IMG/VR virus record: IMGVR_UViG_3300036828_000804
Coordinates: 1 to 38,940 of that record
DNA from: a virus
DNA: 38,940 nucleotides
Reading direction: 5' to 3' (one strand)
The number at the start of each line of letters is the position of its first letter. The first letter of the stretch is position 1. Below are positions 8,694 through 12,271 of the stretch, one piece after another. A program made the position numbers and the translations under genes. The notes beneath the pieces are model-generated. The model was not told where the DNA came from and ran no database searches. It saw only the letters and a list, made by a program, of their open reading frames with translations.

Positions 8694-8912
8694 CTACTTG
8701 ATCCATCCGGCGCGCAGCGCACCGGCTACCAGGTGCGTCGCGTTGGACGCGCCGACGCGTGCCAGCATGCGGGACACGGACGTGTACAGCGAGCGCTCCT
8801 TGACGAGCATCTCCCGCGCGATCCGCGAGCGCGTCTCCCCGTCGGCCAGGCGCCGCAGCAGCTCGAGTTCCTTGTCCGTGAACGGGCATGCGGCATGCCG
8901 GGGCGGTGTCAT
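8694..8912 (-). CDS. Stand-alone LuxR/GerE-type helix-turn-helix protein (72 aa)
   Basis: The whole protein is one LuxR-type DNA-binding domain: FTDKELELLRRLADGETRSR starts the first helix pair at residue 11, then IAREMLVKERSLYTSVSRML gives the turn and recognition helix, and THLVAGALRAGW is the final helix. There is no receiver or ligand domain, so it must act through its own expression level or a partner. The ATG overlaps the stop of the gene at 8909-9361. A regulatory target is not evident from sequence. Confidence 0.75.
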   Translation of the reverse strand: MTPPRHAACPFTDKELELLRRLADGETRSRIAREMLVKERSLYTSVSRMLARVGASNATHLVAGALRAGWIK

Positions 8913-9361
8913 CCCAGGTCACCTGCCTCCCAGGATCGCTGGGCCTTGAGGAGCTCGAACTTGAGGTTGATCCGGAGCGGGCGCTCGAACTGCGCGACGG
9001 CGCCCCGGGCATCCTCCAGCGCCGTGAGCAGCTTCTGGTAGGCGGTGGCCTCGGCCTCGTCCAGGTGCCGCAGCGTGACCATGTCCCAGTCGATGGCGGC
9101 GTGCCGCCCCATGTCCTCCCACAGCGCCACCACGCTGCCGTCGGACTTGCGTATGTCGTCGGCGACCCCGTGCCTCACGTGCCCGCCGACGGCCGTGGAG
9201 AACGGCACGTGCACCTCGGGCCTGTGCGTCGCCACACGCACCTTCGAACGCAGGTCGGCCAGGGTGTCGGCGGTGTACAGCTGGCCGTCCACGATGACCC
9301 GGAACATCCCGTCGCCGTCCACCAGCACGACGTGCTCGACCCCTTGGACATCGATTCTCAT
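8909..9361 (-). CDS. Hypothetical protein (150 aa)
   Basis: First gene after the promoter at 9388-9426, with GATCAGGGAAGGAAG just upstream of the ATG. The N-terminus is a beta hairpin (MRIDVQGVEHVVLVDGDG); the second half is helical (EAEATAYQKLLTALEDARGA). It is coupled to the LuxR-type gene by ATGA. Confidence 0.65.
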   Translation of the reverse strand: MRIDVQGVEHVVLVDGDGMFRVIVDGQLYTADTLADLRSKVRVATHRPEVHVPFSTAVGGHVRHGVADDIRKSDGSVVALWEDMGRHAAIDWDMVTLRHLDEAEATAYQKLLTALEDARGAVAQFERPLRINLKFELLKAQRSWEAGDLG

Positions 9362-9387: not shown

Positions 9388-9426
9388 ACTTGTCAGCAGG
9401 CTACACCGTGTCTGCCTGCTACGGAA
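9388..9426 (-). promoter_or_regulatory. Putative leftward promoter with degenerate 13-bp operator
   Basis: The 13-mer ACTTGTCAGCAGG (plus 9388-9400) matches the repeat at 11 of 13 positions. On the minus strand TAGCCT overlaps its end as a -10 box; the -35 (TTCCGT, 17 bp away) is weak. It lies 27 bp before the start of the gene at 9361. Confidence 0.5.
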
Positions 9427-9439
9427 CCCCGCCGGGTCT

Positions 9440-9526
9440 TCAACGTCCGACCGCCAGCACGAGCACGCAGATCGGCGCCACGACGACCAGCAGGAACGAG
9501 ATGATGATGCTGCCGACCCGGCTCAT
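9440..9526 (-). CDS. Single-helix membrane microprotein (28 aa)
   Basis: MSRVGSIIISFLLVVVAPIC begins a protein that is nearly all hydrophobic helix, with one Arg at each end. Its ATG overlaps the stop of the DUF397 gene (TGATG). It could be a membrane-active peptide, but nothing shows its role. Confidence 0.55.
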   Translation of the reverse strand: MSRVGSIIISFLLVVVAPICVLVLAVGR

Positions 9527-9726
9527 CACCGCACCTCGCCGTCGAACTCGCCCTGCGCCACGCCCGCCAGGAACGCCTCCCATTCGGCCCTGGTGAACGC
9601 CAGCTCCGGCCCGGCGCCGCCGTCCTTCGAATCGCGCACCCGGAACCCGTCCTCGGTCTCCATGACCTCGACGCAGCACTGGCCGCCCTCCGATCCGGCG
9701 GGCTTGTGCCACTCGTTGATCTTCAT
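9526..9726 (-). CDS. DUF397 domain protein (66 aa)
   Basis: The full length matches the DUF397 pattern: an N-terminal W (NEWHKPAGSEGGQCCVEV), then GFRVRDSKDGGAGPELAF, then TRAEWEAFLAGVAQGEFDGE. In Streptomyces such small proteins are encoded next to XRE-type regulators (the WhiJ-like and abaA-like clusters) and modulate or antagonise them. Here the partner lies immediately upstream (9723-10001, ATGA overlap). The family is common on actinobacterial chromosomes; in a phage it may act on the host's paralogues. Confidence 0.85.
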   Translation of the reverse strand: MKINEWHKPAGSEGGQCCVEVMETEDGFRVRDSKDGGAGPELAFTRAEWEAFLAGVAQGEFDGEVR

Positions 9727-10001
9727 GCTGTCTCCCGGGTGAGTGAGATGTCGGTCCCGTCTATGATCGTCCCTCGCCAGCGCTCGCGTCCCAGCAACAC
9801 GAGCGGGCACACGTCGTACAGGTCCGCGAACTCGAGCAGCACGTCGATGCTGATCAGGTAGCGGCCTGCCTCCCAGAAGCTGATCTGCCCCTGCTTGTAT
9901 CCGGTTCTCGCCGCGGCCTGCGCCTGGGTCAGGCCCGAGTCCAGGCGCGCTTCGCGCAGGTGCATGCCGATCTCGACGGCGAGGCCGCGGTCCCTGGCCA
10001 T
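9723..10001 (-). CDS. XRE-family helix-turn-helix regulator (92 aa)
   Basis: Residues 11-65 form a Cro/C1-type HTH: GMHLREARLDSGLTQAQAA, then TGYKQGQISFWEAGRYLISI, then VLLEFADLY. The protein stops soon after the HTH, unlike the roughly 280-residue WhiJ-like partners of DUF397 proteins, which carry a DUF5753 sensor domain. It overlaps the DUF397 gene by 4 nt. A repressor or anti-repressor role is likely; the target could be the 13-bp repeats, but that is only a hypothesis. Confidence 0.85.
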   Translation of the reverse strand: MARDRGLAVEIGMHLREARLDSGLTQAQAAARTGYKQGQISFWEAGRYLISIDVLLEFADLYDVCPLVLLGRERWRGTIIDGTDISLTRETA

Positions 10002-10002
10002 G

Positions 10003-10428
10003 TCAGGGCTCTTCCACGACGTCGTGCCACTCGCCGACGGGGCGCACCATGACCTTGCCCGGATACTCGAGGTAGGCGCGGGCCTCCTCGGCGGTGGAGA
10101 AGCCCCATACGGTGTGCCAGGTGGCGGAGTCTTTCGGGTCGCGCCAGCGGACGCCGTACTCGTCCGTGGAGGACTCGATGCGCTTCGCCAGCGCGCGGCT
10201 CGTGGCCTCCGCCTGGTCCCGCTCGCGGGTGAGCCGCTCGACTCCCTCCACCAGCACGCCCAGGTCGCCGACGGTCGGCTTGTCGATGCCGATCACGGGC
10301 TCGGAGCAGTGCTTGATCGGGACGCGGCCGTATCCGTCGTCGTACTGGCCGTACCGCTTCACCCAGGCGTCGAACCAGGTCCGGCAGCGTGCCAGTGATT
10401 CGTCGAGAGCGGTCAATGGCCTGGTCAC
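10003..10428 (-). CDS. Hypothetical protein (141 aa)
   Basis: GTG start (MTRPLTALDESLARC) overlapping the stop of the RHH gene (GTGA). The middle contains a helix with GVERLTRERDQAEATSRALA, and the C-terminus is beta-rich with W residues. It links the RHH gene and the XRE-DUF397 pair in one transcription unit. Function unknown. Confidence 0.6.
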   Translation of the reverse strand: MTRPLTALDESLARCRTWFDAWVKRYGQYDDGYGRVPIKHCSEPVIGIDKPTVGDLGVLVEGVERLTRERDQAEATSRALAKRIESSTDEYGVRWRDPKDSATWHTVWGFSTAEEARAYLEYPGKVMVRPVGEWHDVVEEP

Positions 10429-10703
10429 GGCTTCCCCACGGGCGTCGCGTAGTGGCTCTGCGGCTCCTCGTGCACCCATTCGGGTCCGTCGGCGGTCGGG
10501 ATCTCGACGGTCGGCAGGCCGCACTCGCCGCATACGGACCGGCGGGGCGGGGGCGGCGTCTCCGGCACCCCCGCGTACCGCTGCTCGAGCGCCTCTATGA
10601 GGATCTTGCTCATGGGGCGGTAGTTCTCGAATGACTCACGGCGGAGGTTGGCATAGACCTCATGCGGTAACCGAACCGTGAGTGATCGGGTCTCTTCACT
10701 CAT
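10425..10703 (-). CDS. Ribbon-helix-helix regulator with CxxC tail (92 aa)
   Basis: Residues 7-44 fit the CopG/Arc ribbon-helix-helix fold: strand SLTVRLPHEVYANL, helix RESFENYRPMSKILIEALEQ. A proline linker leads to CGEC (58-61) and an acidic tail that could form a small zinc knuckle. Directly upstream of the ATG is the element TGATACCGTGGG, which recurs at the start of the gene at 28628-28888, so self-regulation is plausible. No partner toxin is seen. Confidence 0.75.
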   Translation of the reverse strand: MSEETRSLTVRLPHEVYANLRRESFENYRPMSKILIEALEQRYAGVPETPPPPRRSVCGECGLPTVEIPTADGPEWVHEEPQSHYATPVGKP

Positions 10704-10706
10704 GCA

Positions 10707-10718
10707 CCCACGGTATCA
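10707..10718 (-). promoter_or_regulatory. Start-proximal element TGATACCGTGGG, copy 1
   Basis: TGATACCGTGGG on the minus strand ends 3 nt before the ATG of the RHH gene. The same 12 bp, at the same distance, precedes the ATG at 28888. There is no Shine-Dalgarno sequence here, so it could be an operator or the -10 region of a leaderless transcript. Confidence 0.45.
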
Positions 10719-10913
10719 GTCGCGAGGGTGCTTGTCGCGCCATTCGGCCAGCAGGCCGTCAGCCGACACCCACTGCGGGTTGGGCAGGTCGTCTCTGAAC
10801 ACTGATACGCCGCAGACCTCGCCCTTCACGACGCCCATGAGCTTGTCGAACGAGTCGGCCTCGTCCGCGAGCAGCCCACGGGCGTCCGCCACGTACACCT
10901 TGAACCGGGCCAC
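10716..10913 (-). CDS. Hypothetical protein (65 aa)
   Basis: GTG start (MARFKVYVADARGLLADEA) overlapping the previous stop (TAGTG). The sequence is alpha/beta with WVSADGLLAEWRDK at the end. The stop overlaps the TGATAC element of the next gene. Longer frames upstream are shadow. Function unknown. Confidence 0.55.
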   Translation of the reverse strand: MARFKVYVADARGLLADEADSFDKLMGVVKGEVCGVSVFRDDLPNPQWVSADGLLAEWRDKHPRD

Positions 10914-11146
10914 TAGATCGCGACCTCGAACACGTAGCCGCGCTCGTTCGTCTCGACCACCTGCACCGCCGGAGCCGCATAGGACCCGCACAGCTTCTGG
11001 GCCATCCGCCGGGCCGCGTAGGCGTGCATGTCCTCCGCGTTCATCCCGTAGTCCCACGGAACCCGCAGCTGGCTGCCCATGGCCGCGGCCGTGACGAACT
11101 CGCCCTTTGTCTCCGTGGCCTGGATCTTCCTCGTCCTGATCTTCAT
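10913..11146 (-). CDS. Hypothetical protein (77 aa)
   Basis: The second ATG (MKIRTRKIQATETKG) at 11146 is preferred over that at 11155 because GGGAGG lies 9 nt before it and only 0 nt before the first. A helix (DMHAYAARRMAQKL) is followed by strands (VQVVETNERGYVFEV). It is first in the unit driven from 11173-11211. Confidence 0.6.
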   Translation of the reverse strand: MKIRTRKIQATETKGEFVTAAAMGSQLRVPWDYGMNAEDMHAYAARRMAQKLCGSYAAPAVQVVETNERGYVFEVAI

Positions 11147-11172
11147 ACCGGTCATCCTCCCTGAACTCGACT

Positions 11173-11211
11173 GCTTGTCATCAGTCTACCGCACCTCGAC
11201 CGTTTCCACAC
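11173..11211 (-). promoter_or_regulatory. Putative leftward promoter with 13-bp operator
   Basis: Plus strand GCTTGTCATCAGT (11173-11185) matches the repeat at 12 of 13 positions. On the minus strand the -10 box TAGACT (11188-11183) overlaps it and also contains the stop codon of the upstream gene. The -35 is poor. The leader GTTCAGGGAGG follows. Confidence 0.6.
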
Positions 11212-11848
11212 CGTCTTCCGAGGCCAGGATCTCCGCTCGCAGCACCCGCCGGATGGTGCGCTGCGTCTCGGTGTTCACCCCGGCCTGGGCCAGCGCGTTG
11301 TCCAAGGCCCGATCCAGCAGCGCCAGTTCCTTCTCGCGCAGCTGCAGGCCGCGCTGGTCCAGGCCGAGGCGCATCGCCTTCTCGGCGTGCGATCCGGCCA
11401 TGTCCATCGACTTGAGCATCGCGCCGACCTCGCCGCGCACGTGGATGTTGCCGAACGAGTCGAAGTAGGTCAGCTTCTCCTGCTCGGCCAGCTCGGCCTG
11501 CAGCCGTCCGGCCATGGCGCGCGAGATCGCAATCACCCACTGCAGGGTCTCGGCCGGGTTGCCGTACCGCTCGACGATCTCCGTGTCGGTCATCTCGAGG
11601 ACGCTTTTCCGGGCGTTCATGATCGTCTGGCGCTCCACCGTGCGCCGGTCGGCCGCCTCGATCGTCGTCTGCGCCTTGCCGCCGTGCATATGGCACACCG
11701 ACGCGCCGGGCACCGGCCCGTTGGTGCACCGCTCCCCGCTCTGCTTGCTATTCGCAGTGCACTGATGCACCGGAACGGGGCCCAAAAGCTTGGCCATCAC
11801 GTCGTCCAGAGCCCGATACTCTTCCTTCTCGTCCATGTTCGACACCAT
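11186..11848 (-). CDS. Cys/His HGG-motif protein, possibly small-terminase-like
   Basis: Near the N-terminus Cys, Cys, Cys and His lie in CTANSKQSGERC and VCHMHGG, a putative zinc site that phage proteins often carry ahead of a helical body, some of them annotated as small terminase-like. The rest is helical (AGRLQAELAEQEKL, REKELALLDRALDNALAQ). The frame is open to an ATG at 11980, but codons 1-44 of that version use rare low-GC3 codons and contain a GGGTGACGCA repeat and a 17-bp palindrome, so I prefer MVSNMDEKEEY at 11848. Neither start has a clear ribosome site. It faces the repeat region, so DNA binding there is an attractive guess. Confidence 0.6.
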   Translation of the reverse strand: MVSNMDEKEEYRALDDVMAKLLGPVPVHQCTANSKQSGERCTNGPVPGASVCHMHGGKAQTTIEAADRRTVERQTIMNARKSVLEMTDTEIVERYGNPAETLQWVIAISRAMAGRLQAELAEQEKLTYFDSFGNIHVRGEVGAMLKSMDMAGSHAEKAMRLGLDQRGLQLREKELALLDRALDNALAQAGVNTETQRTIRRVLRAEILASEDGVETVEVR

Positions 11849-11883
11849 ACGCACCGCATGATCCCTCGTCCATGGGGGGTCAC

Positions 11884-11900
11884 CAAGATCATGGATCTTG
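11884..11900. repeat. 17-bp perfect palindrome
   Basis: CAAGATC and GATCTTG flank a central ATG. It lies 36 bp upstream of the preferred start of the gene at 11848 and would suit a dimeric repressor. Confidence 0.5.
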
Positions 11901-12171
11901 AAACGGTCGGACAACTCTCTGACCTGCACGGACAACTCAGCACCCCTGGGTGACGCAGAATCGCACACCTCTATCTGCATGCGTCACCCGCTGCGTCACC
12001 CGCTGCGTCACCCACCAGATACGGTGACGCACACGTACGTCACCCGATGACGCGGGAGACGCAGGGTGACGCATATTTTCACAGGTTTTCTGTCACAACC
12101 TATGACGTGGGAGACGACATTCGTCACCGGGTGACGCAGCGGTGACGAAGGCAATTTGGCACCTGACCTGC

Positions 12172-12177
12172 GATAAT
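12172..12177 (+). promoter_or_regulatory. Extended -10 promoter candidate
   Basis: GATAAT preceded by TGC gives an extended -10 box reading rightward. A transcript would start near 12184, run through the large inverted repeat and reach the gene at 12315. No good -35 box is present. Confidence 0.4.
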
Positions 12178-12190
12178 GACAGCACGACGA

Positions 12191-12271
12191 CGGGTGACGC
12201 AGGTTCTATACTCTCTGGATACCTGAAGAGAAAGGGCAGGGGCAGAGAGAGTAGAAAACCTGCGTCACCCG
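12191..12271. repeat. Inverted repeat with 26-bp arms
   Basis: Arms 12191-12216 and 12246-12271 pair over 15 bp (CGGGTGACGCAGGTT with its complement), then 3 mismatches, then 8 bp (TACTCTCT), around a 29-nt centre. Each outer arm contains one GGGTGACGCA copy. It could form a cruciform or an RNA stem-loop in the leader of the gene at 12315. Confidence 0.7.

Follow-up and report, generated by a model that had tools for sequence, protein, structure and literature searches.

The window, the whole stretch of DNA that was analysed, is a record of 38,940 bases from an uncultured actinobacterial phage that carries on its minus strand a short XRE-family gene directly upstream of a DUF397 gene, in the same order and orientation as in canonical XRE-DUF397 pairs, and the two genes overlap by 4 bp (ATGA). 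The locus and its surroundings comprise:

8694 to 8912, minus strand: LuxR-type HTH protein of 72 aa (GerE 33.8 bits, cut-off 23.5), in the next operon
9389 to 9399, minus strand: another operator-like site (CTGCTGACAAG), just downstream of the pair and in front of the next operon (8909-9361)
9440 to 9526, minus strand: hydrophobic ORF of 28 aa (MSRVGSIIISFLLVVVAPICVLVLAVGR), its start overlapping the DUF397 stop (TGATG)
9526 to 9726, minus strand: DUF397 protein (PF04149) of 66 aa, ATG at 9726, stop at 9526
9723 to 10001, minus strand: XRE-family lone-HTH protein of 92 aa, ATG at 10001, stop at 9723
10425 to 10703, minus strand: candidate Arc-like ribbon-helix-helix protein (weak match to PHROG 2639, E 0.0031), in the same operon as the pair
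11174 to 11184, minus strand: operator-like CTGATGACAAG, which follows directly on a -10-like TAGACT and lies 19 nt ahead of the first gene in the pair's operon

The minus-strand run to which the pair belongs extends leftward from 11155 (10913-11155, 10716-10913, 10425-10703, 10003-10434, XRE, DUF397 and the 28-aa ORF), and every junction in it is an overlap or a gap of at most 12 nt. As all of the operon's junctions are equally tight, the overlap between the XRE and DUF397 genes does not point to a particular tie between them, and we rejected it as a sign of a functional pair. The 28-aa ORF at the end of the run likely encodes a putative single-pass membrane peptide. Short hydrophobic ORFs (26-38 aa) also lie directly 3' of the viral DUF397 genes of L164, L034 and L143, and the most hydrophobic ORFs following DUF397 in the locus set are viral in every case.

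The 66-aa product matches PF04149 at 65.5 bits (E 4.9e-18; gathering cut-off 24 bits) over profile positions 2-54 of 55 and PHROG 10815 at 4.1e-16, and contains the CVE (CxE) and RDS motifs, so that the similarity whose absence from a profile search had been set to overturn the original prediction is present. Its predicted structure of three strands and a helix (pLDDT 84.9, 31-row alignment) agrees with a published description in which strands are combined with a helix at the terminus and with the CxE and RDS motifs (PMC7159879); a PDB fold search gave no significant match for it (best E 0.91), and PADLOC gave none. The protein is a genuine DUF397, most similar (58-61% identity) to DUF397s that belong to canonical pairs on chromosomes.

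In the 92-aa XRE, Pfam finds HTH_31 (49.6 bits, 5e-13) and HTH_3 (47.2 bits, 2.3e-12), both over residues 10-67, and no second domain, so both domains of the predicted pair are real. The tail after the HTH is 32 residues long. DUF5753, the C-terminal domain of WhiJ-type XREs (Sco1979 family), was found neither in the protein (Pfam, NCBIfam) nor anywhere in the record, by a search that was positive in three of three canonical phage control records. The solved structure nearest to the XRE is that of the ICEBs1 Xre regulator (7t8i, E 1.3e-4), and the short HTH of the window XRE, with a brief tail, resembles ImmR-type and generic lone-HTH XRE regulators, which to our knowledge do not normally stand beside DUF397. 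No close relatives were found among phages or viral contigs; the relatives are distant chromosomal and plasmid XREs only, and those examined (L169, L170 and the two Aeromicrobium genomes of L005/L006) are not accompanied by a DUF397. A sequencing frameshift was rejected as the cause of the short XRE: the HTH and the stop are only 32 codons apart, which leaves the gene about 180-200 codons short, and no DUF5753 was detected anywhere in the record.

Elsewhere the record encodes a DNA polymerase, a helicase, an exonuclease, a primase, a topoisomerase-like protein and tail genes. Relatives of its polymerase and tail genes are spread over many actinophages and beyond, and a Streptomyces host is therefore not established. 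The topoisomerase-like phage protein (14352-15335, minus strand; PHROG 6247, 286 bits) has relatives in phages of unrelated hosts, and the gene at 11186-11980 has relatives only in distant contigs, without DUF397 in the fetched loci. Neither a tyrosine nor a serine integrase was found in the record, which is probably incomplete and breaks off at the tape-measure gene. Rfam gave no matches, nor did sigma-70 and terminator scans of the pair's region; 24 kb of the window had no Megablast match among phages, and no sister phage was recovered via a flanking gene or the promoter/operator string.

The window XRE and the partners of other DUF397s

XRE-DUF397 pairs are abundant in actinomycetes, with roles in development and antibiotic control (PMC10294661, PMC6262351, PMC10364602, PMC8269248). 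The original prediction is right that DUF397 proteins partner WhiJ-like XREs in development. We compared the locus with a set of 90 DUF397 loci of actinomycete genomes plus viral loci. In the 83 other XRE partners, phage and chromosomal (59 once near-identical HTHs were removed), 206-247 residues follow the HTH, as against 32 in the window XRE; where scanned, this region is DUF5753, which is present in the partners of L010, L025 and Picard, and all 15 S. coelicolor XRE partners are proteins of 258-303 aa with DUF5753 (Table 1 of PMC10364602). The window thus shares with WhiJ/SCO4542, Scr1/Scr2 and other Streptomyces pairs an XRE directly upstream of a small co-directional DUF397, the latter 58-61% identical to its nearest chromosomal members, but the Streptomyces XREs of 258-303 aa with DUF5753 differ from a window XRE of 92 aa that is HTH only and not demonstrably WhiJ-type.

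XRE-DUF397 pairs are already known in phages, namely PIS 136, Picard, Mojorita and several IMG/VR contigs, and PHROGs has a DUF397 family. The genes of Saccharomonospora phage PIS 136 (PIS_120/119) and of the Streptomyces phages Picard and Mojorita (Picard gp25/gp24) overlap and have the same order as in the window, but their XREs, of 282 and 324 aa, extend into a long C-terminal region (Pfam confirms DUF5753 for Picard, and the Sco1979 model matches PIS 136 below its cut-off), and their DUF397s are only about 42-44% identical to that of the window. The unusual feature of the window locus is the XRE without DUF5753, not the carriage of a pair by a phage. On a Prauserella plasmid (L174:389-1145) DUF397 overlaps an upstream 187-aa gene without a Pfam match, a non-canonical partner.

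That the XRE is shortened to its HTH, as originally described, holds as a description (32 residues against 206-247), while truncation from WhiJ is unsupported: there is no DUF5753 and no Sco1979 match, and the HTH similarity is generic. Against a WhiJ-type profile the window HTH scores 38.6 bits and generic XREs (Pseudomonas, Aeromicrobium) 31-45 bits; with leave-one-out, 54 of the 59 true partners reach at least 54 bits, and because four true WhiJ-type HTHs score only 32-41 the profile test is not final on descent. The NCBIfam Sco1979/WhiJ-type model did not match the window XRE, and it matched two full-length phage partners below its cut-off; the NCBIfam matches to the window XRE were generic and sub-threshold only, such as HipB-like and RstR-like. 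Aligned with the partners of the nearest DUF397s, the window HTH scores a median of 31.5, compared with 60-74 for canonical pairs at equal DUF397 identity, and its percentage identity to these partners stays within the 5-95% range. The recognition region reads ISFWEAG, versus vsriEtG in the WhiJ type. Judged by sequence, descent from WhiJ is unproven and somewhat disfavoured.

Viral DUF397s and their neighbours

Of 42 other viral DUF397 records, which include a few near-duplicates, 33 lack an XRE directly upstream and the remaining 9 have one of full length in that place, and DUF5753 was not detected in nine of ten whole orphan-bearing contigs tested; a DUF397 without a DUF5753 partner is thus the usual state in phages. 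Orphans such as those of IMG/VR contigs L004, L011, L013, L018 and L033 resemble the window in having no DUF5753-type partner beside DUF397, but unlike the window none has an XRE directly upstream. The surroundings vary (a holin gene in L018 and, by inspection, a GntR-like gene in L017 and a metalloprotease in L015 and L028), and inspection of the orphans found no common lysis, tail or early context. With about two short XREs per 214 kb of viral flanks, chance adjacency to DUF397 is expected ~0.2 times in the 33 orphan loci, a rough estimate that has to be read alongside the selection of the window for its XRE-DUF397 adjacency. Coincidental adjacency is possible.

An N-terminal 'KSSFS..CVEV' unit is doubled or tripled in the viral DUF397s of L011, L022, L032, L034, L037 and L145, and some S. 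coelicolor members of the family are also tabulated with split DUF397 matches (PMC10364602).

Candidate DNA targets

The 13-bp element invoked in the original prediction is probably one of two repeated motifs that are truly present in the window:

2262, 6981, 9389, 11174, 12307, 12708, 15361, 16353, 25799 and 27506: repeat sites of CTGATGACAAG
20166, 23263, 25848 and 27544 (plus strand) and 1051, 2132, 4965, 6981, 9381 and 15352 (minus strand): sites of GATCAGGGAAGAG, upstream of many genes

Allowing a single mismatch, the 11-bp CTGATGACAAG or its reverse is found at these ten sites, where 0.4 would be expected in the window. By inspection, nine of them adjoin a -10-like TA(G/A)nnT upstream of a gene start, and the tenth (12708) lies between convergent genes. 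By their position the sites look like putative operators. The repeats resemble a phage-wide repressor regulon. Three small DNA-binding proteins are encoded near the CTGATGACAAG sites of the pair's region, and the ligand could be the XRE, the Arc-like protein (10425-10703) or the LuxR-type protein (8694-8912). The start-associated 13-bp GATCAGGGAAGAG contains a Shine-Dalgarno sequence; when up to two mismatches are allowed, about 0.7 sites are expected and ten are present.

Repeats of GGGTGACGC, in both orientations, cluster at 11948-12270 between divergent genes: 11 of the 30 near-matches in the window fall within 330 bp, the maximum in 2000 random placements being 5. The cluster is possibly an origin or control region.

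Readings of the locus

The reading that we favour, with a probability of roughly 0.48, is that two adjacent early-region genes, probably co-transcribed, work separately, one as a lone-HTH phage regulator and the other as a host-type DUF397 acting on host proteins. It is favoured by the genuine chromosomal-type DUF397, by an XRE that has no DUF5753 and whose HTH scores as generic XREs do, by the mostly orphan viral DUF397s and by the CTGATGACAAG repeats. The 92-aa XRE would act on its own as an HTH regulator of the phage, of Cro/ImmR type, and bind phage promoters, the CTGATGACAAG repeats being candidate sites, one of them at the promoter of its own operon. DUF397 would be a host-type protein that the phage carries with no DUF5753 partner. 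Since SCO4542 is believed to lift repression by WhiJ, and BldB forms hetero-oligomers with its paralogues (PMC4255298, PMC6262351, PMC10294661), the phage DUF397 would most likely bind host WhiJ- or BldB-type proteins and shift that network during infection. Co-transcription, the DNA target, the host target and the direction of the effect are what we infer here. Several points count against two separately working genes: the low scores of four true WhiJ-type HTHs leave room for descent of the XRE from WhiJ, the XRE gene occupies the canonical position and overlaps DUF397 by 4 bp as its counterparts in Picard and PIS 136 do, phage DUF397s are not known to have an interaction or a phenotype, and three small DNA-binding proteins encoded nearby could compete for the repeats.

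It is rather unlikely, though the strongest of the alternatives, that the genes form a true minimal pair in which the lone HTH serves the phage as repressor or activator, with DUF397 as a dedicated co-regulator (antagonist or oligomeriser) that contacts the HTH directly in place of the DUF5753 interface, the two giving the phage its own switch. The canonical gene order with the 4-bp overlap, in the position seen in canonical phage pairs, and the operator-like site at the operon promoter are consistent with such a pair, as are other viral DUF397s that adjoin small DNA-binding genes (L019, HTH_17 sub-threshold; L017, GntR-like by inspection). However, it is a single case whose short XRE has no homologue in phages or viral contigs, chance adjacency is expected at the rate roughly estimated above, and the junctions of this operon are tight throughout. 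The specific proposal of a phage switch made of two proteins at the CTGATGACAAG promoters, with DUF397 working directly on a bare HTH and no DUF5753 involved, we consider doubtful and a little less probable still.

Less probable again is a decayed canonical pair, in which a WhiJ-type XRE has lost DUF5753 by internal deletion, leaving its DUF397 and an HTH-only product that would be a dominant-negative competitor for host WhiJ operators. A DUF397 clearly of the chromosomal canonical-pair type and the canonical gene order speak for decay, but the HTH score to the partners of the nearest DUF397s lies below the usual (while identity is within range), no DUF5753 remnant was detected in the record, and the recognition region is not that of the WhiJ type. 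A type II toxin-antitoxin module serving addiction or immunity, with the XRE as antitoxin and DUF397 as toxin, was proposed for XRE-DUF397 from comparative genomics (PMC2701414) but is very improbable here, since 14 S. coelicolor DUF397 proteins and, earlier, Scr2 were non-toxic on overexpression (PMC10364602, PMC6262351), so that published tests of the 15 S. coelicolor pairs are negative, and the window DUF397 has no PADLOC match.

BldB/DUF397 proteins govern Streptomyces development, and their biochemical action is obscure; if phage DUF397s are routinely partnerless, they offer small, separable proteins for binding tests. If the XRE and DUF397 of the window do not interact, the locus amounts to a captured host-type gene next to a phage regulator of an ordinary kind; if they do, a bare HTH with DUF397 would be the smallest system for testing DUF397 action, and a true minimal pair would reveal the simplest form of that action. 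Routine carriage of partnerless DUF397s by phages, if true, would suggest that phages reach into the developmental control of their hosts.
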